Below, piece by piece: positions 10,041-59,412 of a stretch of 64,000 nucleotides of DNA. Position 1 is the first letter of the stretch. Each line of letters opens with the position of its first letter. The notes below the pieces were generated by a model. The model was not told the DNA's origin and searched no databases. It saw nothing but the letters and a program-made list of their open reading frames with translations. Where the stretch lies: positions 1-64,000 of the forward strand of contig SUSU01000004.1 in the NCBI GenBank assembly GCA_015063225.1, given 5' to 3'. The DNA comes from Thermoplasmata archaeon. GTDB lineage: Archaea; Thermoplasmatota; Thermoplasmata; Methanomassiliicoccales; Methanomethylophilaceae. A program made the position numbers and the translations under genes.

Positions 10041-10090
10041 GTTCGAAAGGAGGTTTTTCTCGGATAAAGCACCTGCGGAACTACAATAGT

Positions 10091-11053
10091 TCACCGTTTG
10101 AACTGCTTGCTGACGTCCCCGTACTGTGTATAGTCGAAGAACTCGTCGATCCTCGGGGCGTCCCTGCCCTTCAGGTCGATGATCTGATCGTTCTCGGATA
10201 TCCCCCCGTAGAGGATCTCCGATTCGGGGTCGTAGACCCTCGAGCCCCTCGCATCACCTTTCGCACGGTTCGCATAGCAGTAGACACAGTCGTGGGGGCA
10301 TGTATCGTAAGCCCCGATGTCGATGTTCTTCACGCATCTGCATCCGTCCCTCAGGGGCGTGGTCATCTCCTCGAAGGGGACGTCGATGCGCCTCATCTGA
10401 CGGCTGTCAATGCACCCGCGGGGCTCGATGCCCCACCTGGTGAGGTCGTAGTGGGGACAGCAGTACGTCAGCTCGATCCCGTGCTTGTCCGCTATGGGTT
10501 TTATGGCTTGAGCCAGAGCATCCATTTCGCTGTGGGTCACGGACCTGAACAGATCCTCCTTGCCGGCGAGTTTCGGATGTATCTCCACGAAACTGAATAT
10601 GCATCTGCGGGTGTACCCCTCGAGCTCCCTGCACAAGAGTTCGAACTTCCTCCTGTGGTAATCCACATCGATGTACCTGTTCATCAGGACGGGGTCGTAC
10701 CTCCAGAGGCACCTGTCAGGGCCTATCCTGTCGGATATCTCCCTGAACGATTCCGCCACATCCGCCTTCGACGGCACCCGGGGTTCGAGGTCCTTCCCGT
10801 ACGGGGTGATGGTGACCTCGAACATGTACATGTGCCCCATCGAACCGATCTCCTTCAGATGTGGGATCAAGGGGGCGGGGTTCTTGGTCACGAAGACGAG
10901 GGCGTCCACGTTCCTGCGGGTGAGGTCTATCCTGTACACCAGAGGGTTGTACATGGGATTGCGCACCAGACAATAACCGGCACGAAGACGGTTCATCAGC
11001 CATTCGGAGTGGAACGCGGGGATGTCCGTCCTCCTGCTGGCGCTGATGATCAT
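10091..11053 (-). CDS. DUF1848-like (radical SAM-type) protein
   Basis: MIISASRRTDIPAFHSEWLMNRLRAGYCLVRNPMYN...; CPHDCVYCYAN cysteine motif near C-terminus. Confidence 0.8.
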   Translation of the reverse strand: MIISASRRTDIPAFHSEWLMNRLRAGYCLVRNPMYNPLVYRIDLTRRNVDALVFVTKNPAPLIPHLKEIGSMGHMYMFEVTITPYGKDLEPRVPSKADVAESFREISDRIGPDRCLWRYDPVLMNRYIDVDYHRRKFELLCRELEGYTRRCIFSFVEIHPKLAGKEDLFRSVTHSEMDALAQAIKPIADKHGIELTYCCPHYDLTRWGIEPRGCIDSRQMRRIDVPFEEMTTPLRDGCRCVKNIDIGAYDTCPHDCVYCYANRAKGDARGSRVYDPESEILYGGISENDQIIDLKGRDAPRIDEFFDYTQYGDVSKQFKR

Positions 11054-11105
11054 GCGTCTTCGATGGTAGGGAACGATAAAGTAATATCGTCCCGATTCGG
11101 GAAAC

Positions 11106-11573
11106 ATGGAGGAGAGGAGGATAGGTACCTTCCTGACCATCATCGGGAAGGTCAGCGTCGTCGCGGACAGGAACAGCGTGCTCGCCGTCTACCTCCCCTC
11201 GGACAACCTCCCGAACATAGAATCGGGGACCACCCCGGTCATGGAAGAGGCCATCGGGGAGATCTCCGAATACCTCAACGGCTCGAGGAAGGTCTTCACC
11301 GTGCCCGTTTCACCGGAAGGTACGGAATTCCAGAAACTGGTGTGGGATGCCATGACGGACATACCCTACGGATCCACCGCATCTTACGGGGAGGTCGCGG
11401 AGTACATCGGACACCCCCGCTCCGCCCGCGCCGTGGGCACCGCCTGCGGCTGCAACCCCATACCCATAATCATCCCCTGCCACAGGGTGGTCGCCTCGAA
11501 CGGCCTCGGGGGGTACTCCGGCGGACTCGCGATAAAGAAGAAGCTCCTGGAGATAGAGAGGACGTTCAGATGA
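11106..11573 (+). CDS. ogt: methylated-DNA--protein-cysteine methyltransferase
   Basis: GTEFQKLVWDAMTDIPYGSTASYGEVA; IPCHRVVASNGLGGYSGG active-site PCHRV. Confidence 0.95.
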   Translation: MEERRIGTFLTIIGKVSVVADRNSVLAVYLPSDNLPNIESGTTPVMEEAIGEISEYLNGSRKVFTVPVSPEGTEFQKLVWDAMTDIPYGSTASYGEVAEYIGHPRSARAVGTACGCNPIPIIIPCHRVVASNGLGGYSGGLAIKKKLLEIERTFR

Positions 11574-12271
11574 CGCCCGAGGAGTTCAACCGCCTGATGG
11601 AGGAAAACAGGGACGACAGGTTCTGCGAGTTCACGTCGAAGATCCTCAACACCCCCCTTGAAGTGATCGGGGTGCGCATGCCCGTGATGAGGGCGGCCGC
11701 CAAATCCATAATCAAGGAGGATTGGGAGGGTTTCATCTCCCAGCCCACCACGAGTTACGAGCATTGCCTGGTCAAAGCGCTCGTCCTCGCCACCGCGAAG
11801 ATGCCCCCCATGGAGAGACTGGAAAGGACCAAATCCTTCATCCCGGAGATCCGCGACTGGTCCGTGTGCGATACGTTCTGCGGCGCGTGGAAGGAGAAGG
11901 GTGCGGAGGACGCCCTGTGGGATTACTGCGTCTCCCTTCTTGATACCGGGAAGGAGTTCCCCATGCGCGTCGGAGCGGTCATGATGATGGACAAGTTCAT
12001 CGATGATGCCCATATCACGAAGATGCTTGGACTCCTCACAAAGGAAAGAGCCAGCACCGGCTATTACTGGGACATGGGATGTGCGTGGGCGCTCTCGTTC
12101 TGCTACATAAAGTATCCCGACATGACGGAGGAGGAGATATTCTCGGGGAGGCTCACCCCGGAAGTCCTCAGGATGACCGTCTACAAGGTTCGCGACAGTT
12201 TCCGCGTGCCGGATGACAGGAAGAAGGCACTGAAGGAACGCTATCGGGCGTTCAGAACTTCGACAGCCTGA
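11570..12271 (+). CDS. AlkD-like DNA alkylation repair protein (HEAT-like)
   Basis: GVRMPVMRAAAKSI; IRDWSVCDTFCGAW; VMMMDKF; ATG overlaps ogt stop. Confidence 0.85.
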   Translation: MTPEEFNRLMEENRDDRFCEFTSKILNTPLEVIGVRMPVMRAAAKSIIKEDWEGFISQPTTSYEHCLVKALVLATAKMPPMERLERTKSFIPEIRDWSVCDTFCGAWKEKGAEDALWDYCVSLLDTGKEFPMRVGAVMMMDKFIDDAHITKMLGLLTKERASTGYYWDMGCAWALSFCYIKYPDMTEEEIFSGRLTPEVLRMTVYKVRDSFRVPDDRKKALKERYRAFRTSTA

Positions 12272-12815
12272 CAATCTCGTCCATAATGATGTCGCGGTTC
12301 TCGTTGCCGAGCCTCGCGCCCTTCCTCTCGAGGAACATCCAGTCCTTGGCCTCGACCCTCTCCTTCAGGGCGGGGGAGGTGACGGCGATGACCCTTCCCT
12401 CGGGGAGGATGTCGGCGTCGAGTATCATCTCGACCATGTGGCGGGGCAGACAGAGGATGATCCTGTCGAAGGTGGAAGTGGTCTTGAATATGGTCCCGAT
12501 GAAATCCTTCCTTAACTGGAGGTCCTCGTACATCTCCGGGGTGGAGGCGACCTCCTCGGCGGGGTACTTCATGACGGTGTAATCCGCGGGGATGAAACCG
12601 TAGCGGCTGCTGACGATACCAAAGGACACCGTGCACAGGGGAGTGCCGTCCTCCTTCTTCGCGAGGTCGAGGTCCCTGACGAGGTTCTTAACCTCCTGGC
12701 ACCTGCCGCCGAAGAGTTCGTATGCGGAGCAGATCCCGTCCTTGAGGAAGACGGTGGAATCGTTCGTGATGACGAGGACGAGAGTGGGGACTTTGGGGAA
12801 GATCTTGTCCTTCAT
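12252..12815 (-). CDS. conserved hypothetical protein in the hypA-hypD operon
   Basis: ORF starts 1 bp after the hypD stop; no family recognised with confidence. Confidence 0.75.
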   Translation of the reverse strand: MKDKIFPKVPTLVLVITNDSTVFLKDGICSAYELFGGRCQEVKNLVRDLDLAKKEDGTPLCTVSFGIVSSRYGFIPADYTVMKYPAEEVASTPEMYEDLQLRKDFIGTIFKTTSTFDRIILCLPRHMVEMILDADILPEGRVIAVTSPALKERVEAKDWMFLERKGARLGNENRDIIMDEIVRLSKF

Positions 12816-39128: not shown

Positions 39129-39178
39129 AATCCACTCCAATATATGATGGTATAAAAAAGGTATCAACTAACATCTTT

Positions 39179-39574
39179 TCAGTGGTCGGGTTCCTCGTAC
39201 TCGATACCGAACTGCCTGGCATATTCGCGCAGACCGTAGGATTGGCTCCGAGTCATGCACATGAACGAAGCTATCTGAAGGGCCTCCAGAACCTCCTCCG
39301 AGGTGGCCCCGGCGGCCTTCGCGTAGGCCATCTGGGCCTTCAGGCAGTACTCCCCGGACAGGGATGCGGCACAGGCCATGGCGATGAGCCTGCGGGTCTT
39401 GATGTCAAGGGCGCGGCCCTTGGACTTGAAGAGCGAATCGGAGACGTCGAACGTCGGACAGAACATGTCGGGCTGGACGCTGAGGATCTGGTTGACGGGA
39501 GGGACGGAACCCGTCACGGCCTTCACGGCATCCAGACGTTTCTTCGCATCATCTTCGGAGTAATCGGAGAACAT
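39179..39574 (-). CDS. carboxymuconolactone decarboxylase/AhpD-family protein
   Basis: LDIKTRRLIAMACAASLSGEYCLKAQMAYAKAAGATSEEVLEALQIA. Confidence 0.85.
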   Translation of the reverse strand: MFSDYSEDDAKKRLDAVKAVTGSVPPVNQILSVQPDMFCPTFDVSDSLFKSKGRALDIKTRRLIAMACAASLSGEYCLKAQMAYAKAAGATSEEVLEALQIASFMCMTRSQSYGLREYARQFGIEYEEPDH

Positions 39575-39720
39575 GCACAGAAAAACGGCTGGAGGATTTA
39601 TAAACCCGAGTCCGGAGGGAACGGACTTGCGGCATGTATGTTGCGTGCGATGGGATTGCAATACTGTCCTTTTATTATTGAGAAGACGAACACTCCCCGC
39701 GGACCTTCCGCAGGGATAAC

Positions 39721-40431
39721 ATGAACCCCGAACAGAGATTGGACACTATCGTGAGAGAGGTTGGAGAGAAATACGGTTTCGAATCGATCGGCGCGGAATT
39801 CGAAGGTTTCCGGAACATGGTCGTCAAGTGGAGGAGGACCAACCGCTGGATCCGCTTCAAGGTGTCGGACTACCTCGCGGACGCGCCGGACGAAATCTTC
39901 CAGTCCCTTGCGCGCGTGCTCTTCCAGCAGATATCCAGGGAACGCGACAAGTATCCCGAGGACCTTCTGGCGTGGCTGACCGACCCCTCGTTCTGCCTCA
40001 GGAACAGGGAAACCTACCTGACCCGCAGCCCCGAACTTACCGGGGATTCCAAGGGATGCTACAAGGACCTGCAGGATTCGTATGCGAGGCTGAAGGAACA
40101 GGGACTCGTGAAGGACGACCCCGACATACTCATCTGCTGGAACCAGACCGCCAGGCCCGAGACCCCGTCGTACTACTCCGTACTGATGAAGACCGTCGCC
40201 CTGACGGACCTTCTCGACGACCCCTCCGTACCCGATTATGTGCTAGACTGGCTCGTTTACCACGACCTGTGCATCGTGCAGTCCGGATACAAGCCGTACG
40301 CGGTCAAGAGGACGGTACCGATCAAGGTCGCGAGGAGGTATCCGAAGATGACCGAGGCGCAGGAGTTCCTGGACTGGTTCCTGAAGGACGTCATCGACAG
40401 CTGCGAATGCGAGGAGGACGAGGAGGATTAA
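39721..40431 (+). CDS. conserved hypothetical; possible degenerate zincin metallopeptidase-like protein
   Basis: VPDYVLDWLVYHDLCIVQSGYK at the position where zincins carry HExxH. Confidence 0.7.
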   Translation: MNPEQRLDTIVREVGEKYGFESIGAEFEGFRNMVVKWRRTNRWIRFKVSDYLADAPDEIFQSLARVLFQQISRERDKYPEDLLAWLTDPSFCLRNRETYLTRSPELTGDSKGCYKDLQDSYARLKEQGLVKDDPDILICWNQTARPETPSYYSVLMKTVALTDLLDDPSVPDYVLDWLVYHDLCIVQSGYKPYAVKRTVPIKVARRYPKMTEAQEFLDWFLKDVIDSCECEEDEED

Positions 40432-43033: not shown

Positions 43034-44164
43034 TCACTCCGCGGAACGTCCCCTGCCGATTGCGGCCCTGATGCGCTCCAGCAGGACGGGGCCGTACACG
43101 CAGATCGCCATGCATATGACCATGGTTGCGAAGAAGATCAGGACCTTGTCCGACGAGATAAGCTCCGCAGGGAGCCAGTCGTCAGGACCGAAGGTGAAGA
43201 ACGGGATCGTTAAGAAAGCGACGACGAAACCGTGGAACAGCAGGATGCCGAAAGTGTGCCTGCCGATGGATGATAAAAGTCTCGTTACCGGCCGTACCTT
43301 CACCACGATTGCCGCCATGCAGAGATAGGCCGTGTTGATCAGCAGCACTTCAACAAAGTACGAAAGGAACGAATATCCTCCGTACTCCCCGTAATACGCC
43401 CGGGTAATCTTGGTGCCGGGCGGGAATATGGCGACCAGGATGATACCGGCGGCAAGAGAGCCCAGGAACAGGGCCCAGAACCTCCAGGATCCCCATCTGA
43501 AATCCTGGACCCTCTCGATGAGCCTGACCTTGGCGGCCATCGCACCCGCCATCATGAAGGATGCGGCCGCGAGGGAGATATGGGCGTAGAACGGGAGCCC
43601 GTACGGATACAGCTCCCTGAGGGCACAAGCGGCCACGACCAACACGGCCAGGGCGGCGATGGAACGCTTCCAGTCGTCGATGACATGATCCGCGAGGGCG
43701 TAGAAAACGACGAATGCGACGAGCATGGCCCAGATGTAATAGTATCCGATGCAGTTCATGCATCCCGACCACGTGACTCCGCTGTCCAGGGGCACGAACG
43801 ACTTGTTGAGGGCCATCCCGAGAGACAGTGCATTGACGAAATCGTCCGAATCCACGTTCTGTCCCCACACCACGCACCAGACGTAACTGAGTGCCGTGAT
43901 CACGACCGTACATACCGTCAGAGCAACGGCCAGCTGGAAGAAACGCTTCTTCATGTTAGCGACGAAACCCCTGCCGGGACGGTAGAAATAACCCGAGAGC
44001 AGCATGAATCCGAAAAGCCCGAGGAAGAGGCACTGGAAGATGACGGGAGACTCGGAATCCCCGTTCATGGCAAACAGCACGTGGGTCAGGACGACCAATG
44101 TTATCACGACGCCTTTGAAGATGTCCACGAGGGATAGTCTGCTACCGGCCTCCGATTCCTCCAT
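43034..44164 (-). CDS. acyltransferase-3 family membrane protein (paralog 1)
   Basis: RLSLVDIFKGVVITLVVLTHVLF...LLSGYFYRPGRGF; multi-TM; ATG at 44164. Confidence 0.85.
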   Translation of the reverse strand: MEESEAGSRLSLVDIFKGVVITLVVLTHVLFAMNGDSESPVIFQCLFLGLFGFMLLSGYFYRPGRGFVANMKKRFFQLAVALTVCTVVITALSYVWCVVWGQNVDSDDFVNALSLGMALNKSFVPLDSGVTWSGCMNCIGYYYIWAMLVAFVVFYALADHVIDDWKRSIAALAVLVVAACALRELYPYGLPFYAHISLAAASFMMAGAMAAKVRLIERVQDFRWGSWRFWALFLGSLAAGIILVAIFPPGTKITRAYYGEYGGYSFLSYFVEVLLINTAYLCMAAIVVKVRPVTRLLSSIGRHTFGILLFHGFVVAFLTIPFFTFGPDDWLPAELISSDKVLIFFATMVICMAICVYGPVLLERIRAAIGRGRSAE

Positions 44165-44269
44165 ATCTGGTAATAAAACAGATGATATTACAATCTTTAG
44201 CAACAAGGCTGCTGAACTGAGCGATAACCCTCCGGAAAGCATGATTCCCGCTCCGGCCACGGAACGGAT

Positions 44270-45385
44270 TCAATCCTTGTTTCTGACTCCTTTCAGGCGC
44301 TCCAGGACCGCAGGGCCGCATATGCAGATCACCAGACAGATGACCACGGTGACGGCCGCGATGGCCGTCCTCGGCACGACCCCGAGCTCCTCGGGCAGCC
44401 ATACGGTCCTCGACAGGGTGTAGAAGGGCATCACCATCATGGCAGCGATCGTTGCGTGGAGAAGGAGGAGTCCGAGAGAGTGCTTCCCGCAGACGACGAA
44501 GGCGTCGCTCAGCAGGGGGATCCTCGAGAAGAACGTACAGAAGTACATCATGAACACGGACGCAACGACCGCCTCGACATAGTAGGGGACCGCGGAATAA
44601 CCGCCGTAATCGCCGAACATCATCTGTTCGAACCTGATGTTAGGCGGCAGGAGGAAGACCAGGACGAGGGACACCGCCATGCTCAGAATCAGCGGCACCC
44701 AGTATCTCCACGACCTCCATTCCAGCGAATCGATGCGCTCGAGGACGCCGTACTGCTTGAAGGCGGACCCGGTGAACATGAACGCGGCACCAATCATGGA
44801 CAGGTGGAAGTAGAACGGGAAGGTGTACGGATACAGTTCCCTGTAGGCGATGGACATGACGATGAGGGCCGCGATGAGGGCGATCCTCAGGCGTATGTCC
44901 TTGCGGACACGACCCTCGAGAGCATAGAATATCACGAATGCACCGATCATGAGCCAGAGGAAGTAATATCCGATACCGTTGCCGCAGAATTCCCATGTCG
45001 TCGGGGTGTCGAGGGGATCGAAGGCCTTGTGCAGGCTGAACATGAACAGGAAACCGTCGTAGAGGTCGGAGGGGTGGATGGGCTGTCCCCAGAGAGCGGC
45101 CCACAGATAGCTGATGACCGTGAGGGCGACACAGCAGATAACCAAGGCCAAGAGAAGCACGGTGACGCGTTTCTTCATGTTCTCGGCGAAACTCCTCTCG
45201 GGCCTGTAGAAGTATCCCGATATCATCAAGAACACCATCAATCCAAGATACAGGGTCTGGATGACCGCGTTGGGGGAACCGACATCGGATTTCGTCGCGA
45301 AACAGATGTGGCAGAAGACGATGATCAGAATCGCCACGCCTTTGAAGACATCGATGGACCTTACGCGGGCAGTATTCCCGTCCAT
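44270..45385 (-). CDS. acyltransferase-3 family membrane protein (paralog 2)
   Basis: VRSIDVFKGVAILIIVFCHICF...MISGYFYRPERSFAENMKKR; ATG at 45385. Confidence 0.88.
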   Translation of the reverse strand: MDGNTARVRSIDVFKGVAILIIVFCHICFATKSDVGSPNAVIQTLYLGLMVFLMISGYFYRPERSFAENMKKRVTVLLLALVICCVALTVISYLWAALWGQPIHPSDLYDGFLFMFSLHKAFDPLDTPTTWEFCGNGIGYYFLWLMIGAFVIFYALEGRVRKDIRLRIALIAALIVMSIAYRELYPYTFPFYFHLSMIGAAFMFTGSAFKQYGVLERIDSLEWRSWRYWVPLILSMAVSLVLVFLLPPNIRFEQMMFGDYGGYSAVPYYVEAVVASVFMMYFCTFFSRIPLLSDAFVVCGKHSLGLLLLHATIAAMMVMPFYTLSRTVWLPEELGVVPRTAIAAVTVVICLVICICGPAVLERLKGVRNKD

Positions 45386-45480
45386 GCGGGAGTAACCGAC
45401 AATACCTGTTAAAACAGTAGTCCAAGGAACACAGTCACGGGGATGATCCCCGATAGGACAGATCCCGGTTCCGTAAGGGG

Positions 45481-45614
45481 CCGCCATCAGGCGCATCTCC
45501 GTCATCGCTGCCGAGAACCCCGAGATCAAGGAGATCGAGATCAAACCCGTCCTCATGGGCCCCGACGGAAAGGGCAGCTATGCGGTCGACTGCGCCTGCA
45601 CCCTGAACCACTGA
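45481..45614 (+). pseudogene. duplicated 3' fragment of the ADP-forming acyl-CoA ligase gene
   Basis: Encodes AIRRISVIAAENPEIKEIEIKPVLMGPDGKGSYAVDCACTLNH*, near-identical to the end of the 40874-42973 product, with no 5' part. Confidence 0.93.
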
Positions 45615-45623
45615 AACACTCAA

Positions 45624-45647
45624 ACCGCCGTCCTCCGGGACGGCGGT
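45624..45647. terminator. duplicated hairpin terminator
   Basis: ACCGCCGTC-CTCCGG-GACGGCGGT; counterpart of 42984-43007. Confidence 0.6.
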
Positions 45648-45672
45648 CCTCTTTTATCGGAACTTCACTGGC

Positions 45673-46806
45673 TCATTCGGAAGGGTGTTCGACGCCGACC
45701 CCGAGTGCGGCCCTGATGCGCTTCAGCACGGCGGGACCGTACATGCAGATGGCCAGACTCACTATGAGGGTCGCGAATGCGAGGACGACCCTCATGGACA
45801 TGCCGAGGTCATCGGGCAGCCATACATCCCGAGACAGCGTATAGAATGGCATGACCATCATGGCAACGAGAGAACAGTGGAGCAGGAGCAGTCCGAGCGA
45901 ATGCCTGCCGCAGACGATGAGGAAACCGCTGAACACGGGGATCTTCGATACGATGACGCACATGTACATCATGAATACGGATGTCACGAGGGCCTCGAAG
46001 TAGTAGGGCACCGCGGAATAACCGCCGTAATCTCCGAATATCATCTGGTCGAAACTGATGCCGGGCGGCAGGAAGAATACGAGCACCAGGGAAATAACGA
46101 GACTCAGAAGGAACAGCGCCCAATAACGAGGGGATTTCCATTCGAACCTATCGATGTATTCGAAGACCCCGTACTGCTTGAGTGCGGATCCGGTGAACAT
46201 AAACGCGGCACCCATCAGGGACAAATGGAAGAAGAACGGGAAGATGTACGGATACAGCTCCCGGTAGGCGATGCTTGAAGCGATGAGGATCGCTATGACT
46301 GCGATCCTCAGACGGATGTCCTTGCGCACACGGCCCTCCAAGGCATAGAAGATTACGAAACCGCCTAACATGAGCCAGAGGAAATAATACCCTACGCCGT
46401 TACCGCAGAAGCTCCAAACCGTCGGAGTATTGTCCAGGGGATCGAATGCCTTGTGGATGCACAACATGTAACTAATCCCCCCGGGCAGGTCCGACGGCTG
46501 GATCGGCTGACCCCAAAGGACCGCCCACCCATAGCTTATGACGGGGAGGGCGAAACAGCAGATGAGCAAAGCCACGAGAAGAACGCTTATGCGTTTCCTC
46601 ATGTTATCGGCGAAACTCCTGTCGGGCCTGTAGAAATAGCCCGATATCATCAGGAACACCATCAACCCGAGATACATGTCCTGGATGATGATATTGGGGG
46701 TTCCGACACCCGATCTGGCGACACAGACGTGGCAGAATATGATGACAATGATTGCCGCACCCTTGAAAACGTCGATGGATCTGATGCGGGACGTACTCCC
46801 GTCCAT
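45673..46806 (-). CDS. acyltransferase-3 family membrane protein (paralog 3)
   Basis: IRSIDVFKGAAIIVIIFCHVCV...MISGYFYRPDRSFADNMRKR; ATG at 46806. Confidence 0.88.
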   Translation of the reverse strand: MDGSTSRIRSIDVFKGAAIIVIIFCHVCVARSGVGTPNIIIQDMYLGLMVFLMISGYFYRPDRSFADNMRKRISVLLVALLICCFALPVISYGWAVLWGQPIQPSDLPGGISYMLCIHKAFDPLDNTPTVWSFCGNGVGYYFLWLMLGGFVIFYALEGRVRKDIRLRIAVIAILIASSIAYRELYPYIFPFFFHLSLMGAAFMFTGSALKQYGVFEYIDRFEWKSPRYWALFLLSLVISLVLVFFLPPGISFDQMIFGDYGGYSAVPYYFEALVTSVFMMYMCVIVSKIPVFSGFLIVCGRHSLGLLLLHCSLVAMMVMPFYTLSRDVWLPDDLGMSMRVVLAFATLIVSLAICMYGPAVLKRIRAALGVGVEHPSE

Positions 46807-46843
46807 ACCACGTAATGCAGAATTCGAGATAAAAACGGCACTG

Positions 46844-48457
46844 TCAGGAATCCTGGAGGGCCCTGTAGTCGATCTTCCCCACCTTGGTCTTCGGAAGGGT
46901 GTCCACGAACTCATATTCCCTGGGTTTCGAGTAGGCGCTTATGTTCGACCTCATGAACGCCCTCAGCTCGTCACGGGTCTCGTCCGTCGGGGGCACTCCG
47001 TCAGCGAGGACCACGAAGGCCTTCACCTTCTCCCCGCGGAACTGGTCGGTGACGCCGATGACGCAGCATTCGCTGACGAGGGGGCTCCTGCAGAGGGTGT
47101 TCTCGACCTGGGCGGGGTACACGTTGTAGCCGGAGGTGACAATCATGCGCTTGAAACGTCCCTTGAAAAGCAGGTATCCGTCGGCATCCTTCTCCCCGAT
47201 ATCACCGGTATGGAGCCAGACATGTCCGTCAGGGTGTTCCATGAACACCTTGTCGGCTGTCTCGGACCCATCCAGGTAGCCCGCCATGAGCGAGGGGCCG
47301 CGGATGCATATCTCCCCCTCCGTACCGTCGGGGACCTCATCAGCAGTACCAAGTCCGACGATGCGCACCTCATGGTCCGCCAGAGGGAGACCGACCGAAT
47401 CCTCCCTGTATTCACCCTTGGGCATGACGGCGACTGCGGCCACTGTCTCGGTGAGCCCGTATCCGACCTGTACTCCCGCGGCGCCGTGTTCCCTGAAGAA
47501 TGCGTTCATTTCGCGCAGGTCGGAGACGGACATCAGGTCCCCTCCACAGAACATGACGCGGATGAACGACAGGTCGGACGAGGCCAAGAACGGATTCTCC
47601 ACCATCTTCTTGAACAGGGAGGGCACACCGATGATGGCATCGATCCTTTTCTTGACCACGGCCTTGCACACGGAATCTATGGTGAACGTCGGCATGAGGA
47701 TGCACTCGACACCGATGCACAGCGGCGCATGGATGCAGGTACACAGACCGAACCCGTGGAAGAGGGGCATTATCGAAAGAACACGCGATACCTCGGAGAT
47801 ATCGATGAGCCCGAGCATGCAGGACATGGATGAGTTGATCGAACGGTTAGTGTGTACCGCACCTTTGCTGGTACCCGTCGTCCCTCCCGTATAGAGGACC
47901 ACCGCAGTGTCTTCCGGAGACGTGTCTGGCTCTGTTGCAGGAGCGGTCGGACCGACCCACGCTACGACCGAGTCGGAATAGCTGATCCTTAGCCTCTTCC
48001 CGACGGTCGCCAAACGTTTGAGCGGCGGAAGCATGGTGTAGGGGGAGACGGGCATCACGAAGGACAGGCCGTTATCATCGCCGGGTTCCGGGAACGAACC
48101 TAGGAGGGAATCAAGGATGATCGCGGCCTTGCAATCCGAATCCCTCACGTAGAACGACAGTTCGTTGGGGGACGAAAGCGGATGGACCATCACGGAAACC
48201 GCTCCGATGCGGTTGACGGCGTAGAACGCTATCAGCGCCTGAGGGATATTGGGGAGGCATATCGCCACCCTGTCTCCGCGTTTGACGCCCAGATACGTCA
48301 AACGGTCAGAGAAGGAGATGATATCCGCATACATGTCGCCGCAGGTGCGCCTGCTCCCGAGAAAATCGTAAGCGGGCGATGATGGATGGTCTTGGAACGC
48401 CTTCTTCAGCGCCCCGAATATTGTCAACCCGCTCACATCAGTATCCATCGTCGTCAA
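46844..48457 (-). CDS. AMP-forming acyl-CoA synthetase/ligase
   Basis: VVLYTGGTTGTSKGAVHTN; GYGLTETVAAVAVMP; HTGDIGEKDADGYLLFKGRFKRMI; PKTKVGKIDYRAL. Confidence 0.95.
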   Translation of the reverse strand: MTTMDTDVSGLTIFGALKKAFQDHPSSPAYDFLGSRRTCGDMYADIISFSDRLTYLGVKRGDRVAICLPNIPQALIAFYAVNRIGAVSVMVHPLSSPNELSFYVRDSDCKAAIILDSLLGSFPEPGDDNGLSFVMPVSPYTMLPPLKRLATVGKRLRISYSDSVVAWVGPTAPATEPDTSPEDTAVVLYTGGTTGTSKGAVHTNRSINSSMSCMLGLIDISEVSRVLSIMPLFHGFGLCTCIHAPLCIGVECILMPTFTIDSVCKAVVKKRIDAIIGVPSLFKKMVENPFLASSDLSFIRVMFCGGDLMSVSDLREMNAFFREHGAAGVQVGYGLTETVAAVAVMPKGEYREDSVGLPLADHEVRIVGLGTADEVPDGTEGEICIRGPSLMAGYLDGSETADKVFMEHPDGHVWLHTGDIGEKDADGYLLFKGRFKRMIVTSGYNVYPAQVENTLCRSPLVSECCVIGVTDQFRGEKVKAFVVLADGVPPTDETRDELRAFMRSNISAYSKPREYEFVDTLPKTKVGKIDYRALQDS

Positions 48458-50862: not shown

Positions 50863-52149
50863 TCACCGGAACCGGTGGTGGCGAGACACGGCCTCAAGGA
50901 CGGATTCGAGCAGAGATACAGTTCCTCCGAGGCCAAGAGTCGGCGCGGGATCGATGTTGACCGTCCGGACCGGAGGGCGCTCTATAACCGCATACTCCAG
51001 GGCGGAGCCCCTCTCCACGGCCGCGGAACAGACGGGACCCGAGGAGATGATGATGTCCGTCTCCACCGTCTCGGGTTCGTCGGAGACGGGAATCCCCAGG
51101 AAATCGAGGTAATCGCCGAGCATCCTATCCCATGAATCGCCGCCGGTGCAGCGGATGCCAACGGGAATCATCCCGAGGTACCCGTACAGGAAACGGGCGA
51201 TTGCGTAAGCGGTCGAACCACCGCATTCCAAAGCGAACGTCCTGCCCTTCGGGAGGGAGTGACGGGCCTCCATCCTCCTGATCTCCCCGGCGGCTGCGAC
51301 CCTCTTCCCATGTATAAGAGCCAGAGCGGGGGATGGGTCCTTTTTCAGACATCCGCATACGCCCTTCACCCACGTCTCCAGGGCATCGAACCCGATAGGC
51401 GCGCCGTCGGGACTTACGAAGGACGGGACCCCGTAATCGGCAGAATATCTTGCGGCTATCGCATCCCCGTACTCGGGATATATGGGGACTATAAGCTCGG
51501 CATCCGCGGAGCGGCGGATGTCGTCGGTGCCCCATCCGGCCCCGATGCACATGTTCACCTCGATCCCGCAAACACCGAGGAGGGAGGTGAGGTCGGCGAT
51601 GGTGTCCTCCCAATTGAGGTGCGTTATCGATATCCCCGTGAGGTTCACCCCCTTCCTGGGGCCCTTGCAGTCGGGAGCAACCACATCGAGGATTCTCAGC
51701 ACACCGTCCTGGAACCCCTCGGCCTCCGTACCGGAATAGACCGGATGGTCCATCAGGACCAGGGGGATGTCGGACTTCACGGCCGTGAGGTCCTCTCCGA
51801 CCAGCGATGCTCCGGGGGAGTTGATGATCGATATCAGTTTGGGGCGCATGCCCTCGACGAACCCGACGAGCTCCTTCAGGCGCTCGGGGGCCCCTGTTAT
51901 GAACGTCCCCATGTCGAGATAGGTGCATGGGACGCGGGGCTGTCCGAAGAAGTAATGGGCGCCGCTGAAGAGGGGATTGCGGCCTGAGGGCGCCTCCGGA
52001 ATGCCGCGGAAGTAGCAGTCTTCCATCAGCGATGAGGGGTAGAGCTTGCACCCGGACGGACCGTGGATGACGGTGTATCCGTCGGATACGCCCTCGAAAG
52101 CGGCCACCGAACCGATGAAACTCTCCGGGAACTCATTCTCCAGCGACAT
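50863..52149 (-). CDS. nitrogenase component-1-like (NifD/K superfamily) protein
   Basis: [62 protein letters not shown]; start overlaps the upstream fusion ORF by 17 nt. Confidence 0.85.
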
Positions 52150-54295
52150 CTTTCCTCCATCCTTCTGAACCGGGAGCGAGTATGCTCCTGGCGATCGAAT
52201 CCATCAGTGCCTTCCCGGCGAACGGGTCGATGCCCGCGGTTATGGGGATGCGGGCCTGGAACACGGCCGGCCCGAGGTCCATCGGCACCATGGACATGAG
52301 TATGTCAGGTGATGACGCACGAATGGATTCGAGGACACGGGGAATGTCCTTCTGCGAGAATATCTCGAACCCTTCGGGAATCAGAGACGAGTCTAGGTCC
52401 CTGGAGTAATCGGGACGGTTGAACACGTATCCCGCCGTCAGCTCCACGCCGCAGGCGTCCATGGCCTCCAGGATCCACGACACGTCGCGGGTCATCGAGA
52501 GTAACACGGCGCGCTTGCCCTCGAGGAGGGAACGGTGCCCAGAGAACATCCCCCCGAACTTCTTCTCCATACGTGCCAGGAGTTCCCCGGCCTCCTTCTC
52601 TTTATGGAAGAATGATGCCACGCACCCAATCCATTCCCTGGTCCCGGCGAGACCGCCGCGGACGGGTACGGGGAGCGTCTCCATCCCGTATTCGTCCTCC
52701 AGGAAGTTGCAGATCTTCTCGGAGAACTTGTCCGTGTTCATGCGGAGATTGGCGGCGGCGTTGGGGGCGTTGCGCATGTCTTCCATGTCTGATATCCCCG
52801 GGAGGACGCAGTTCACGCCTATCCCGATCTCCTTCAGCAGCCCGGTGATGAGTTCAATCTCGTTCATCACCTCGGTGGCCATGGTCTTGCAGCCCACCAG
52901 GTTGACCGTGTCCGGAACGGTACTCCCCCTGACGGAGAACTTCCCGAGCATCCCGACGGCGGCGTCTATCACACCCTGCATGTAATCGCCGGTAGCATTG
53001 CCGTCCTCGGCCAGGAGCAGCACGGACACTCCGGGGTGTTCAGATTCCGCAGTAGTGCATATCTCGGCCACATCGTCACCCATTATCCCCGGGGCGCACC
53101 CGGTGATGACGACGATGTCCTTCGCACCGGCGGCTATCCTTGCCTCCAGGGTGTCCTTCAGGACCCTGTTCCCTCCGAACACCATATCGCTCTCCTTCAT
53201 GTCGGTGGAAACGATGTCGAGGTCGAGATAGCTCGGAATCGTGCGGCGGTTGTTCTTGATGAAACCTATTGTGCTGAGACCCGCCAACTGCACGGTGAAG
53301 TGGGCGCAGTTGCGGGTGGAGTGGAGGATGACGGACAGCCCCCTGACGGACGAACAGGTGGCGGAGGCCCCCGAGAACGCGCATCCCCCGAGGGGCTCGC
53401 CGAAACTAAAATTGCGCGAGGAGTAAGGCAGCCTCTTCTTCGGGGCCTCGTAAACGACCTTGGTCTCCTGCACGGAATTGGAATAGCTGGCTCTTCCCAG
53501 TATCAACATCTCGAGCTCGTGTTCCTCGAGGAAATGCGCGGTGTATCTCTTCTCCCCCGCGACATATTTCGCTAGTTCCCTGAACGTGCCTGCAACGTCG
53601 GAATCCGGGAATGCTTCGACAACCGTCCTCCCCTGTTTCTCGGCCTCCATGAATATCTCGGAACGGCCGATCTTGGCGACTACGGGCACCCCCACCGCCT
53701 CCGAGAAACGCCTGACGCGGTCATCCTCGGCTGGATCCCCGCGGCTGTTGAAGATTATCCCGCCGATCCTGTCGGGGTCGTAATTGGATGTCCCGCGGAG
53801 GATGTTGTTGGCGGCATAGATAGACATGAACTCCCCGGACGTGACTATGTAGACGGTGTCCGCGTATCCGTTCCTCATCGGGACCGCGAATCCCCCGCAG
53901 ACCACGTCCCCGAGGACGTCATAGAGAACCATGTCCGTACCTACGGAATCGGCACCGAGCTCGTTCAGGAGGTCGAATGCGCTGATGATCCCCCTCCCGG
54001 CGCAACCTATCCCGGGTTCGGGACCGCCGGCCTCCACGCAAAGGCACCCTTTGTACCCCTCGGAGACCACTCCGGAGAGGACCCTCTCGGACGGCGGCAC
54101 GCTTTTCAGATAATCCAGGACGGTGGTCTGTTCCCTCCCGCCCATGAGTCCCCTGGTGGAGTCGTGTTTCGGGTCGCATCCGATCTGCATGACCCTTATA
54201 CCCATGTCGGAGAGGGCGGCGGTCAGATTGGAGGACACCGTGGATTTGCCGATGCCCCCCTTGCCGTAGACCGCTATGCGCCGTACCATACGCAT
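52133..54295 (-). CDS. fused NifH-like Fe protein + nitrogenase component-1-like domain (720 aa)
   Basis: N-terminal [25 protein letters not shown] and [11 protein letters not shown] (Fe-protein Cys ligands); C-terminal [31 protein letters not shown] and [13 protein letters not shown]. Confidence 0.9.
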
Positions 54296-54377: not shown

Positions 54378-55487
54378 ATGAAAACAGTCCCGAGGAAAGA
54401 ATTGGCGGGCCTTGGCTCCACCGTGCACGGCGGTCAGGGGTGGAGGTACTCCGGAGTGGAGGACTACAGCCAGAACCTCAATCCCGCAGGAATGCCTCCC
54501 GGCCTCCCGGAGGCCATCGCAGCGGCCACATCGAATTTCACCCACTATCCGGATGCAGACTGCACCGAACTCCGCAGGAAGATTGCGGAACACCACGGCC
54601 TTTCCGCGGACAATATCACAATGGGTGCAGGTTCCTCGGAGATCATCCGCGACTTCCCGTTCTCGTTCATCGACCCCGGCGACAGGGTGCTCGTCCCCCG
54701 CCCTTCCTTCGCGGAGTACTCCCAGCAGATCCTCCTGGCGGGAGGGATCATCGACTACATGGACCTGGGACCGGAGAAGAACTTCCACATCGACATCGAA
54801 GAGGTCCGCAGACGTCTCGGTTCCGCGGAGTACAAGGCGATGTACGTCTGCAACCCGAACAACCCCACGGGAAGAGTCGAGAACAGGAGGACGCTCGAGG
54901 AGATCGCCCGCGAATGCGAGAAGCACGGGACCCTCCTCTTCCTGGACGAGACCCTCCTGGAGCTCGTGGACAGCGAACCGGAGGTCTCCCTCATCCCCAG
55001 GATCGCCGACCACCCCAACGTCATCATCGCCCGCTCCTTCACCAAATCCTTCGCCGTCCCCGGTATCCGCGTCGGATACGGGATCTCGAATCCGGGGATT
55101 ATCGCCGAGATGCAGAAGACCCGCCTGCCGTGGAACATCGGCACCATGGAACAGGCCGCCGCCGCGTTCATGACGGACAACTTCGGGTTCGTGGAGAAGG
55201 CCGCCCGGGATCTCAGGGAGGAAGCACCCCTTTTGTTCGGCGAGCTGAAGGAAGCGGGACTCCCCCTGGAGAAGGATACCGAGTCATTCTTCCACTTCAT
55301 GGACCTCTCCCCCACCGGGATTTCCGTCGCGGATTTCATCGCCGAGATGAAATCGAGGGGATTCATGGTACGCGACTGCGCATCCTTCGGATTCCCGACA
55401 TATATACGCTTCTGTGTCAAGGACCGCGGACGCGACAGCCGTTTCGCGAAGGCGGTGGGCGAGACCCTCGCCAAACTCAAACGGTGA
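54378..55487 (+). CDS. cobD: L-threonine-O-3-phosphate decarboxylase-like (CobD/HisC family)
   Basis: HGGQGWRYSGVEDYSQNLNPAGMPP; PLP Lys ARSFTKSFAVPGIRVGY; followed by cbiB. Confidence 0.85.
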   Translation: MKTVPRKELAGLGSTVHGGQGWRYSGVEDYSQNLNPAGMPPGLPEAIAAATSNFTHYPDADCTELRRKIAEHHGLSADNITMGAGSSEIIRDFPFSFIDPGDRVLVPRPSFAEYSQQILLAGGIIDYMDLGPEKNFHIDIEEVRRRLGSAEYKAMYVCNPNNPTGRVENRRTLEEIARECEKHGTLLFLDETLLELVDSEPEVSLIPRIADHPNVIIARSFTKSFAVPGIRVGYGISNPGIIAEMQKTRLPWNIGTMEQAAAAFMTDNFGFVEKAARDLREEAPLLFGELKEAGLPLEKDTESFFHFMDLSPTGISVADFIAEMKSRGFMVRDCASFGFPTYIRFCVKDRGRDSRFAKAVGETLAKLKR

Positions 55488-55492
55488 TCCCG

Positions 55493-56536
55493 ATGGAACT
55501 GTGGGCGGACGCCGTGCTCATCCTCATCGCGACCCTGCTCATAGACCGCTATATCGGAGATGTCCCCAACAGATACCACCCCCTCAGGTGGATGGGCAAC
55601 CTCCTGACCGCCATCGACAACCGCATCAGGAACAGGACCTCATGGTCCGCCACCGTCCTCGGGTTCCTGTCCTATCTCCTCGTCCTCCTCCTCTTCGGCC
55701 TCGCCGCGCTCATCATCACGGATGCCGTGAGGCACGTCTTCTCGGGCATCCTCAAGTTCGAGCTGTTCGGACAGCACGGCGACCTCGGGGAGATCCTGTG
55801 GATAATCGTCACCGGCCTGCTGGTGAAGGTCTGCTTCGCGCTGTTCGCCTTCCGCAGGTTCTGCGCACCCATCCAGGAGGACCTCCGCCGCGGCGACACC
55901 GATGCGGCGGCCGAGAAGACGCAGATGATGGTCAACAGGAAAACCGCGGGCATGGACGAGGCCCATATCACATCGTCCTGCTGCGAGACGGTCTCCGAGA
56001 ACCTGGTGGACAGTGTGCTCTCGCCCCTGATGTACTACGGCATCCTCGGGATGTTCGGCGCCGTCCTCTTCAGATGCGCGAACCTCATGGACGCCATGTG
56101 GGGACGCAGGAACGAGAGGTACAACATGATCGGGCACTTCCCCGCAAGATGGGACGACGTGCTCGGCTTCATACCCTCGAGACTGTCGCCCCTCTTCGTC
56201 GGTTTCGCCGCCTGGCTCATGAGGATCAAAGGCAGGAGGCCGGCCACCAGGGCCGCCATCAGGGAACATAAGAAGACCCCCTCCCCCAACAGCGGATGGC
56301 CGATGACCGCCACATCCGCGGCCATGGGGATCTCCTTCGAGAAGGAGGGAGTCTACGTGATGGGCGAGGGTCCCCTGCCCTCGATAGACGACGTCATGAG
56401 GTGCTGCCGCCTCATCGAACTGACGTCGGTGATATTCGCAATCGTGATCGTGCTGCCTCTGTCCGTCCTGTTCGGGGTGCATGTGCAGATCGTCATGGAG
56501 GACTTCCTCCACTCTCTCATCTGGGTGTTCCGATGA
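55493..56536 (+). CDS. cbiB: adenosylcobinamide-phosphate synthase
   Basis: LLIDRYIGDVPNRYHPLRWMGNLL; SSCCETVSENLVDSVLSPLMYYGILGMFGA; start re-set to ATG 55493. Confidence 0.93.
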   Translation: MELWADAVLILIATLLIDRYIGDVPNRYHPLRWMGNLLTAIDNRIRNRTSWSATVLGFLSYLLVLLLFGLAALIITDAVRHVFSGILKFELFGQHGDLGEILWIIVTGLLVKVCFALFAFRRFCAPIQEDLRRGDTDAAAEKTQMMVNRKTAGMDEAHITSSCCETVSENLVDSVLSPLMYYGILGMFGAVLFRCANLMDAMWGRRNERYNMIGHFPARWDDVLGFIPSRLSPLFVGFAAWLMRIKGRRPATRAAIREHKKTPSPNSGWPMTATSAAMGISFEKEGVYVMGEGPLPSIDDVMRCCRLIELTSVIFAIVIVLPLSVLFGVHVQIVMEDFLHSLIWVFR

Positions 56537-57645
56537 AATACGTCAAGAGCTACGAAGTAATGGAGGAGCCGAACCACATGGGCACCGCCGTCATCCGCTT
56601 CAGCGAGATGATGGAGGTCCTCAGTTCGGCCCCGCGCAACGGGGGGCACACCCTCACGGATACCGTGTTCATCATGCAGGTCCCCCACGACTACAGCGAC
56701 GGGGACTACGTCCGCGACCTCGAGAACAAGAGGCTGCAGTACGGTCTCCCCGAGCACGCGGTGGGCTTGATGACCGCCGCCGAGGTGAAATACGTCTTCT
56801 CCGCCACCGATTCCGAGTACGACGGGTGCGAAGCCTTCGTCGCCTGCACCGCCGGGGTCACCAACGCCGTCTGCGCCGGAGAGCCCCTCACCGACTGGGA
56901 GGCCAAATCCGCCCGTTCCGCGGAAATCTACCGCATGCTCATATCGGGCACCATCAACACCGTCATCGTCTCCCCCATCCCCCTCACGGACGCGGGGAAG
57001 ATCAACCTCCTTATGCCCGCCATCGAGGGCAAGGCCATGGGCATGCACGACTGCGGATACAGGGAGACCGGGACCACGTCCGACGCGGTCGTCATCGTCT
57101 CCCCCGTGAACGGGGATAAGAAACCGTTCGCCGGGACCGGGACCCCCCTCGGCATCGCCGTAGCCCGCGGAATCAGAAAGACCCTGAAGGAATGCCTCCG
57201 CAAGAGGGGAGAGCATCCGGAGGGCACCGACACCAGCACGATGCTGAAGAACGAGGGCGTCACCACCGACCACATATGGGAGTGCGCGGAGGCCCTCGGC
57301 ATGAACGACGACCTCAAGGACATGTTCTACGAGACCCTCGAGAACATGGGCGCCGACCCCGACATCTGTTCGGTGGTCATGGGAGCGCTGTTCTGCGCGC
57401 ACCAGGCGGAGAAGGACGCGGTCTACGGGATGTACGAAGGGGACTTCCCCCTCAACCTCGTGGACGGCTCGATGGCCTCCTTCCTGGCGTCGCGTATATC
57501 AGAGGACCGCGGTAGGGACCGCGTCACCGATCTGATGAGCATAGCTCCCCTTAACGATACACAACTGGCCGAACACATCCAGCTGCTGGTCTACGGACTC
57601 GTGGCCGGTGTGGTCGGATACATCACGGGGTATACCGATGAGTGA
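56533..57645 (+). CDS. cbiZ: adenosylcobinamide amidohydrolase
   Basis: VGLMTAAEVKYVFSATDSEYDGCEAFVACTAGVTNAVCAGEP; GTGTPLGIAVARGIRKTLKE; ATG overlaps cbiB stop. Confidence 0.9.
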   Translation: MKYVKSYEVMEEPNHMGTAVIRFSEMMEVLSSAPRNGGHTLTDTVFIMQVPHDYSDGDYVRDLENKRLQYGLPEHAVGLMTAAEVKYVFSATDSEYDGCEAFVACTAGVTNAVCAGEPLTDWEAKSARSAEIYRMLISGTINTVIVSPIPLTDAGKINLLMPAIEGKAMGMHDCGYRETGTTSDAVVIVSPVNGDKKPFAGTGTPLGIAVARGIRKTLKECLRKRGEHPEGTDTSTMLKNEGVTTDHIWECAEALGMNDDLKDMFYETLENMGADPDICSVVMGALFCAHQAEKDAVYGMYEGDFPLNLVDGSMASFLASRISEDRGRDRVTDLMSIAPLNDTQLAEHIQLLVYGLVAGVVGYITGYTDE

Positions 57646-58816
57646 AGTTATTAGAGAAGATAACGACGACAACGGATCCTCGGTCGCCGACATGTACAGT
57701 GTCAAGACGGCCGAGCCTCAGGCACCGGCCGAAGAGAAGGCCGAGGTGCAGGAGACCCCCGCTGTCGAGACCGCAGCCGCAGAGGCTCCCGAAGAGACCG
57801 CCAAGGTGAGTGGGACCCCGGCCGCGGAAGCGCAGGAAGAGACCTTTACCGCCACCTCCGTGTCGGTTCAGGATGAGACCCCCGATAACGGGGAACCCGA
57901 GGAATCTTCCGAGAACAAGAAAGAGAGGAAACCCTCCGAGTTCGTCGGAGGGATGATACCCGCCCTGAAGGGCATGATCTCCTTCTTCACCATCTTCCGC
58001 CTGCCCATCGGCGAGAGGGAGATGAGGGACATGGAAACCAAGTTCTGGCTCGTTCCCATCGTGGGACTGCTACTCGGACTCATCGTGTTCGCGGAGTGTT
58101 TCATCTTCGGACTCCTGAACTTCGGCTCCGCTACGCAGGCGCTCATCGTCCTCGCGACCGTGTACGTGCTCTCCAAGTTCCTGCACTTCGACGGTCTCGT
58201 CGATTTCGGGGACGGCATGGTCTGCTCCTCCGCCGACCGCGAGGACCACATCCGCGCCCTCAAGGACAGCCGCATCGGCGCCGGAGGACTCGGCGTCGCC
58301 CTGATCACCGTGCTGCTCTCCGTCTACCTCCTCAGCGAGGTCGGATGGGGACTCCGGATGGGATTCATCCTCAACCTCGGGGAGAACCCTAACGGCTGGT
58401 GGATTTCCGTCGCATTCGTCGCCCTCGCCCTCGAGGTCCTCATCAAGAACGCCATGGTCGCGGCCGCCGCGTTCGGAACCCCCGGCAACGGGATGGCCGG
58501 ACACCAGGTGGAATGCACCAACATGGACTCCATAATCAAGTCCACCGTCCTGACCGCGATCATCGTCGGCATCGTCACCGCCCTGTACTACCTCTTCGCG
58601 AAGGGGAGCGCTACCGGCCTGCCGGTCATAACCGCGGTCATCGTGGTCCTCTACATCCTGGGAATCGTCATGTCCGTCCTCAGCGGATGGCTGATGGCCC
58701 GCCTCGCCAACAGGACCTTCGGGTTCGTCAACGGCGACGTCCTCGGCGCTACCAACGAGATTGCCCGCGTGATTATCCTGTTCATGGCCCTCGTCATACT
58801 GGGAGCAGCGGCCTGA
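57638..58816 (+). CDS. cobS: adenosylcobinamide-GDP ribazoletransferase with acidic N-terminal extension
   Basis: LHFDGLVDFGDGMVCSSADREDHIRALKDSRIGAGGLG; ~110-aa E/A/P-rich N-terminus. Confidence 0.93.
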   Translation: MSEVIREDNDDNGSSVADMYSVKTAEPQAPAEEKAEVQETPAVETAAAEAPEETAKVSGTPAAEAQEETFTATSVSVQDETPDNGEPEESSENKKERKPSEFVGGMIPALKGMISFFTIFRLPIGEREMRDMETKFWLVPIVGLLLGLIVFAECFIFGLLNFGSATQALIVLATVYVLSKFLHFDGLVDFGDGMVCSSADREDHIRALKDSRIGAGGLGVALITVLLSVYLLSEVGWGLRMGFILNLGENPNGWWISVAFVALALEVLIKNAMVAAAAFGTPGNGMAGHQVECTNMDSIIKSTVLTAIIVGIVTALYYLFAKGSATGLPVITAVIVVLYILGIVMSVLSGWLMARLANRTFGFVNGDVLGATNEIARVIILFMALVILGAAA

Positions 58817-59412
58817 TGGAAGTACTGATCAACGCCGGAGGTAAAGGCACCCGTATGGGTGCATGCGGAATCGAGAAACCGATGCAGATCGTCGGTGACA
58901 GGCCCACCGTGGGCCGCGTCGTCGACGCCATGCTCGGGGCGGAGACCGTGGACGGAATCCTGGTCTCCGTCAGCCCCAACACCCCGAAGACGGAGGAGTA
59001 CCTCCGCGGCAGGGGGATAGAGACGATCCGCACCTCCGGCGACGACTTCATGATGGATATGAGGGAATCCTTCTCCGTCATGAAAGGGGAGTACGTCATG
59101 GTCTGTCCGTCCGACGTGCCCCTGATAACATCCGAGAGGATCGATTACTGCGCATCCCGTTTCGAACCCTCGATGCAGTCGATGGTGGTGATGGTGGAGG
59201 CGGAGCTCGTCCGCTCCCTCGGCATCATCCCGTCGTACGCCTGCGACGTGGACGGGAAGGAGTACGTCCTCTCGGGCCTCTCCGTCATGGACAGGGAGGC
59301 CACCATCGCCGGGGACTACCTCGGCGAATACCGGCTGCTCACCGATTTCAAGGAACTAGCCGTGAACGTCAACACCCCCGGCGAGCTCGAGCTCGCCAGG
59401 AAGATGTGCTGA
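58816..59412 (+). CDS. cobY: adenosylcobinamide-phosphate guanylyltransferase
   Basis: MEVLINAGGKGTRMGACGIEKPMQIVGDRPTV nucleotidyltransferase N-terminus; TGATG overlap with cobS. Confidence 0.9.
   Translation: MEVLINAGGKGTRMGACGIEKPMQIVGDRPTVGRVVDAMLGAETVDGILVSVSPNTPKTEEYLRGRGIETIRTSGDDFMMDMRESFSVMKGEYVMVCPSDVPLITSERIDYCASRFEPSMQSMVVMVEAELVRSLGIIPSYACDVDGKEYVLSGLSVMDREATIAGDYLGEYRLLTDFKELAVNVNTPGELELARKMC

Follow-up and report, generated by a model that had tools for sequence, protein, structure and literature searches.

The window, a 64,000-nucleotide stretch of DNA from a Methanomassiliicoccales archaeon (mcrA present; closest named-species relatives Methanomethylophilaceae, Methanoplasma and Methanomassiliicoccus), carries a gene in which a NifH-like Fe protein is fused to a NifD-like domain, followed by a gene for a NifK-like partner. 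This pair, referred to as HD–K, raises the question of which substrate it might reduce and whether it serves F430 synthesis or another pathway.

The fusion itself is already known, from reports of 2012, 2014 and 2024; what appears to be new is its corrinoid context and the likely job that goes with it. NifH–NifE-like fusions followed by nifN-like genes were mentioned for Archaea, Firmicutes and Deltaproteobacteria by Dos Santos 2012 (PMC3464626), as "data not shown" and outside the tree; Borrel 2014 (PMC4153887) lists a "fused nifH/nifE", and the fusion is described in Methanomassiliicoccales, with both forms in Methanosarcinales and Methanomicrobiales, in PMC11237513. The arrangement found here, a NifH fused to a NifD/E-like domain and then a NifK/N-like gene, is that of the 2012 report, and the fusions mentioned in all three very probably belong to the HD–K family or one containing it. 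None of the three offers a phylogeny, a ligand pattern, a corrinoid setting or a function, all of which are addressed here, and in the literature searched, which leaves most subscription journals outside, the fusion is nowhere linked to CobN, CbiZ or corrinoids.

The gene pair

A first-pass annotation of the DNA had claimed a 720-aa H–D fusion with a complete Fe-protein module, overlapping by 17 nt a 428-aa component-1-like partner. Both open reading frames are present as described, and the shared segment is exactly 17 nt (52133–52149), both genes lying on the minus strand:

52133–54295, minus strand: H–D fusion gene, 720 aa, NifH-like plus NifD-like domain (ORF call, Pfam)
53501–54283, minus strand: Fe-protein (H) domain, residues 5–265 (Pfam)
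53384–53500, minus strand: inter-domain linker, about 39 aa (Pfam domain borders)
52292–53383, minus strand: NifD-like (D) domain, residues 305–668 (Pfam, alignment)
50863–52149, minus strand: K partner gene, 428 aa, NifK-like (ORF call, Pfam)

In Pfam, Fer4_NifH matches residues 5–265 of the fusion (E 7e-88) and Oxidored_nitro residues 305–668 (E 1e-54), and the K partner gives a full-length Oxidored_nitro match (E 5e-32). The Fe-protein module is indeed complete, with its P-loop beginning at residue 11 and its two cysteines at C98 and C133; the cysteines of the D domain are C305, C330 and C400. A second, divergent pair of fusion and partner (698 and 430 aa; L009) is found on contig C5 of the same genome. 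Elsewhere in the window, 43034–46914 encodes three paralogous membrane proteins in tandem (408, 428 and 413 aa) that look acyltransferase-like by eye.

Distribution of the fusion

Uninterrupted H–D frames of 700–830 aa occur in many of the 119 genomes sampled for the order Methanomassiliicoccales, often several in each, single-contig assemblies included. The K partner is present in 71 of these 119 genomes (44 of the 73 near-complete ones), in up to 8 copies per genome, and in the wider phylum outside the order it was seen in one genome only, as a weak match in an apparent nif cluster. The fusion recurs in dozens of genomes, in Methanomassiliicoccales with 1–8 copies each and also in Methanosarcinales. 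Of 188 genomes of the latter order, 33 have a match at E<1e-30 and 21 of these reach E<1e-160; Methanococcoides, Methanolobus, Methanomethylovorans and Methanosarcina are among the named hosts. An artefact of sequencing or assembly that joined two separate genes, which the first-pass annotation had itself considered, would fit the split appearance of some relatives (L126, L079) and an in-frame TAG in the HD gene of the congener G018, but intact fusions of this length in dozens of independent genomes, the single-contig G011, G036 and G054 among them, reduce its probability to practically nil, and this reading was dropped.

The TAG of G018 (L075) is a single codon within the D domain, in a fusion that is intact elsewhere, at a position where the window protein has Glu. 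Methanomassiliicoccales are known to encode pyrrolysine, so the codon may either be read through or be plain nonsense. A genome often holds several diverged HD–K pairs, up to 8 of them (L066, L059, L068, L078 and others), and the importer and exporter sets beside the paralogues differ, as if each might serve a different ligand. In the congener G007 the second pair (L094: HD 10613–12760, K 9306–10616), whose partner resembles the deep-branching L066 type, lies directly downstream of what appear by eye to be FpoN/M/L-type membrane subunit genes.

A search of plasmids gave no HD fusion among the matches listed, which were ordinary nif/bch homologues and Nostoc vnfEN-type genes only. On the Nostoc plasmid NZ_CP040273 (L150:8045–11302) two "nitrogenase component 1" genes, probably VnfE/VnfN, stand right behind vnfD–vnfK, and the second of them is among the best plasmid relatives of K (21% identity).

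Phylogeny and structural models

In a maximum-likelihood tree of D and K sequences with NifD/K/E/N, VnfD/K/E/N, BchN/B/Y/Z, CfbD and Mar-like references (the last assigned by synteny, not assay), the fusion D domains group together (split support 99), as do the K partners (100), and all references fall outside both groups. All H domains are in a single clade (100) that excludes CfbC, NifH, BchL and BchX. D and K have diverged together, as their trees mirror each other (r = 0.90 for 27 pairs; best of 5000 shuffles 0.33). The trees place the pair neither with BchX/BchY/BchZ, support for how the K clade is related to the Bch subunits being weak, nor with the Mar-like D and K, whose Treponema/L100–L103 clade is separate. 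Judged by these trees, HD–K is a distinct nitrogenase-like family, separate from CfbC/CfbD, NifDKEN, DPOR, COR and Mar-like enzymes. The first-pass annotation had likewise set the system apart from F430 synthesis and had asked for a phylogeny; a placement of both proteins inside the CfbC/CfbD clades, which it named as evidence to the contrary, was not observed for H, D or K.

Structure and profile searches had also been proposed. For the former, AlphaFold models of D (pLDDT 82) and K (pLDDT 88) were built from alignments of the window sequence and the fetched loci. The 11 best PDB matches of the K model are all DPOR BchB (TM 0.77–0.79), and BchB is also the closest by profile. The D model is about equally close to NifD/VnfD, Mar and BchB (TM about 0.65), and the best PDB match of the D profile is NifE. 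The best NCBIfam match of the H domain is CfbC (NF033200), at 322 bits below the cut-off of 402, and the CfbD profile TIGR03282 scores 26 bits, below its cut-off of 268.

Cluster-ligand site

A closer inspection of the alignment at the cluster positions showed that the equivalents of NifD C62, C88 and C154 are cysteines in all 34 D domains (C305, C330 and C400 in the window protein). At the three matching P-cluster positions K has Asp/Glu, Cys (31/31) and Pro; the cysteine, C34 in the window protein, is placed at the position of NifK Cys95 and BchB Asp36 and is the sole canonical ligand position kept in K. The [4Fe-4S] ligands and the P-loop of the H domain are invariant in 33 of 33 fusions. 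D has no equivalent of the FeMo-cofactor ligands Cys275 and His442, both of which a nitrogenase would have, and in place of the six P-cluster cysteines of nitrogenase (three in D and three in K) there are three in D and one in K. Nor does K have the Asp36 that marks the B subunit of DPOR. BchY/BchZ show a 3+1 pattern in the same alignment, BchZ having a cysteine where BchB has Asp36. Read from this alignment, the HD–K interface pattern is the 3+1 of COR, that is, three cysteines from D and one from K, and no FeMo-type cofactor.

The earlier description of the partner as cysteine-poor falls short, since the one canonical P-cluster position left in it supplies the interface cysteine expected of a COR-type 3+1 site. 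The PRVPC cysteine that had been taken for a cluster motif does not have that role in the alignment: K C75 (51925–51927), the cysteine of PRxPC, is conserved in 94% of the K partners, but lies off the P-cluster ligand positions and at no known cluster position.

An activity on N2 or on a C–S compound, of the nitrogenase or methylthio-alkane-reductase type, is scarcely conceivable: such enzymes share only superfamily membership with HD–K, the cofactor ligands are missing in D, the Nif and Mar-like sequences lie in other clades, and no nif or sulfur-assimilation neighbours were seen. Both readings were ruled out on the missing ligands and the separate trees. Somewhat less remote, though still very unlikely, is a NifEN-like scaffold or metallocluster carrier that would be coupled to metal transport rather than act as a catalyst. 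The NifE match of the D profile and the frequent ABC transporters nearby would suit such a carrier, and a link to metal transport was suggested for other NifEN-like genes near ABC transporters (Dos Santos 2012, PMC3464626); D, however, has no equivalent of the FeMo-cofactor cysteine, the neighbours are tetrapyrrole enzymes, and no NifB-type genes were seen at the loci examined.

Relation to F430 synthesis

The assembly of the window (91.5% complete) contains mcrA and cfbE, and cfbC and cfbD are absent from it, the HD–K pairs being its only nitrogenase-like proteins over cut-off. The first-pass annotation had called for a check for separate cfbC/cfbD genes, and relatives have both while this assembly has neither, so that of the two findings it had named as speaking against its reading the lack of another cfbCD is seen in this assembly, and the phylogenetic one is not. 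Together with CfbC as the top NCBIfam match of the H domain, under the cut-off as it is, this gap could be taken to mean that HD–K is the F430 reductase of the lineage, replacing CfbC–CfbD and acting on Ni-sirohydrochlorin a,c-diamide. We consider this very unlikely. H and D lie outside the CfbC and CfbD clades; CfbD is of a single-subunit type, whereas HD–K has a distinct K that adjoins HD in nearly all loci and co-diverges with D; and CfbD over cut-off is carried by four congeners (G007, G018, G026 and G051, all 99% complete) and by most HD–K genomes. Relatives have a complete separate cluster CfbC–CfbA–CfbE–CfbD–CfbB away from HD–K, which is not linked to cfbA, cfbB or cfbE. Since separate cfbC/cfbD are carried as well, HD–K is not the F430 system of these relatives, and since several near-complete mcrA genomes are without both CfbD and HD–K, the two systems do not replace each other. 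Membership in CfbCD was ruled out by the trees and the curated cut-offs, and a role as general CfbCD substitute by the coexistence of CfbD and K in most genomes and the absence of both in others.

In the window's own genome (G000) cfbE, on contig C7 at about 39150–40343 (L157:9150–10343), adjoins a UspA gene as it does in the full cfb locus of G007. The contig is unbroken on both sides of cfbE, which suggests loss of cfbC/cfbD rather than a gap; loss, relocation into the missing 8% and dependence on outside precursors are all possible. Seven further genomes with mcrA and at least 98% completeness (G002, G003, G008, G012, G023, G027 and G055) matched neither PF00142 nor TIGR03282 at E<1e-20; they are apparently without cfbC/cfbD, and dependence on F430 precursors or another route is possible for them.

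Gene neighbourhood

The HD gene of the window is divergent from a cobD–cbiB–cbiS–cobS–cobY operon, a layout kept in the congeners L045 and L048:

54296–54377: divergent intergenic region of 82 bp between the HD gene and the corrinoid operon
54378–55487, plus strand: CobD-like PLP enzyme (threonine-phosphate decarboxylase), 220 bits, below the cut-off of 290
55493–56536, plus strand: CbiB (PF03186, 248 bits)
56296–57645, plus strand: CbiS, adenosylcobinamide amidohydrolase / alpha-ribazole phosphatase, 273 bits, over the cut-off of 250; true start probably downstream of the ORF start at 56296
57608–58816, plus strand: CobS cobamide synthase (PF02654); translation may begin further downstream than 57608
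58816–59412, plus strand: MobA-like nucleotidyltransferase in the CobY position

A search for cobalamin riboswitches in the window, in L061 and in L118 found none, which counts against the corrinoid reading proposed below. The operon of L202 in Methanosarcinales has the order ArsR/SmtB-type metalloregulator, CbiZ, ChlI, ChlD, BtuF, BtuC, BtuD, HD, K, CbiK, CobN, in which the three Btu proteins are a BtuF-type binding protein, a BtuC-type permease and an ATPase, and CobN scores over the curated cobaltochelatase cut-off. Shorter versions are present in L200, L206 and L218, and L217/L118 have an additional AP-endonuclease-2-type TIM barrel, below Pfam's cut-off, of the superfamily of the cobamide-remodelling enzyme CbiR (PMC7733943). 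In Methanomassiliicoccales (L060, L061, L107 and others) the order BtuFCD–CbiZ–ChlI–ChlD–HD–K comes with CobN, an ABC-2 exporter and an isochorismatase-like hydrolase, and the same partners are seen in L060, L061, L066, L107, L133 and L134. The lipoproteins that follow K in Methanoplasma loci were set aside as cobalamin-binding candidates, having no Pfam match.

Neighbours were counted at 45 Methanomassiliicoccales loci and, for comparison, at 40 control loci of 20 kb taken from these genomes or from close relatives. Of the 45 loci, 26 have a FecCD/BtuC permease no more than 8 kb away, as does 1 of the 40 controls (p=9e-9). At least one of five corrinoid/chelatase families is present at 30/45 loci and at 4/40 controls (p=5e-8). 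These Fisher values are optimistic, as the loci are related and not phylogenetically independent. The ABC-2 permease is found in 17/45 loci and in none of the 40 controls, CobN in 8/45 and 1/40. None of the five families is near the remaining 15 of the 45 loci or, by inspection, near the C5 pair, and 11 of 20 Methanosarcinales loci, a separate K subgroup, are without such neighbours. Corrinoids may therefore not be the substrate of all paralogues, and those in other contexts may use other tetrapyrroles.

The commonest neighbours are importers of the PF01497/PF01032 type, a family that also moves siderophores and haem and for which NCBIfam gives no specific substrate. HD–K might accordingly supply iron by reductively freeing the metal of a ferric siderophore or haem that the cell has imported, which we regard as unlikely, though less so than a role in F430 synthesis. 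The ABC-2 exporters would suit it, but ferric siderophores are not known to need ATP-driven, nitrogenase-type reduction. The relatives of CobN do include the haem de-chelatase HmuS (PMC12583661); against this, CbiZ, CbiS, CbiK and a CobN over the cobaltochelatase cut-off point to corrinoids.

Proposed function and mechanism

The reading that we favour, with moderate confidence, is that HD–K would be an ATP-driven reductase of COR/DPOR type that acts on a tetrapyrrole taken up from outside, probably a corrinoid, as part of salvage or metal exchange. The first-pass annotation had named no substrate; we infer its identity from the conserved neighbours, which point to an imported tetrapyrrole and make a corrinoid the likeliest candidate. 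The H domain, presumably a dimeric P-loop ATPase with a bridging [4Fe-4S] cluster, would take up electrons, probably from ferredoxin, and ATP hydrolysis would drive them to a single cluster at the D/K interface, expected to be [4Fe-4S] and bound by three cysteines of D and one of K, as in COR. Because there is no FeMo-type cofactor, the electrons are proposed to pass to a bulky substrate in a D/K cavity, as in DPOR, COR and CfbCD. This substrate would be an imported tetrapyrrole, most probably a corrinoid, reduced at the ring or at the central metal. CbiZ/CbiS may trim the nucleotide loop or remove the lower ligand during salvage, and CobN–ChlI–ChlD and CbiK may handle metal exchange or re-metallation. 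The tether would raise the local concentration of the Fe protein, with docking either intra- or intermolecular.

A narrower version, put forward tentatively, is that the electrons reduce the corrin ring or the cobalt so that CobN–ChlI–ChlD and CbiK could remove, exchange or reinsert the metal, allowing methanogens to salvage foreign, metal-free or wrong-metal corrinoids. We know of no precedent for enzymatic metal exchange in a corrin.

To our knowledge, all characterised nitrogenase-like tetrapyrrole reductases serve (bacterio)chlorophyll or F430 synthesis. HD–K, a group tied to B12-type transport and cobaltochelatase genes in two methanogen orders, would if correctly read be a third separate group, with a COR-type site, and would extend this chemistry to corrinoids. 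It would also give a role to the CobN homologues of archaea, reported to be of unclear function (PMC12583661), and a reason for the recurrence of H–D fusions in methanogens. Corrinoid salvage bears on gut and rumen methane, because methylotrophic methanogenesis depends on corrinoid proteins. The covalent tether also bears, as an experiment of nature, on whether every cycle of electron transfer requires dissociation of the Fe protein.

Comparison with known systems

By sequence, HD–K shares with COR (BchX with BchY/BchZ) the two-component, ATP-dependent organization, the 3+1 cysteines and the lack of a FeMo-type cofactor; unlike COR it forms its own clade, has H fused to D and is surrounded by corrinoid, not bacteriochlorophyll, genes. 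With DPOR (BchL with BchN/BchB) it has in common the BchB fold, to which K is nearest in structure and profile, and class I chelatase H/I/D-type genes beside it, as bchH/I/D cluster with bchLNB. However, DPOR has Asp36 where K has a cysteine, its BchL is separate, and HD–K is without photosynthesis genes. CfbC/CfbD is likewise nitrogenase-like, found in methanogens and active on a tetrapyrrole, as HD–K is proposed to be, but CfbD is a single NifD-like subunit with another cysteine set, belongs to separate clades and coexists with HD–K in most relatives. The class I chelatases HmuS, CobN and ChlH stand in a different relation, the CobN relatives being operon neighbours, that is, partners and not homologues of HD–K.
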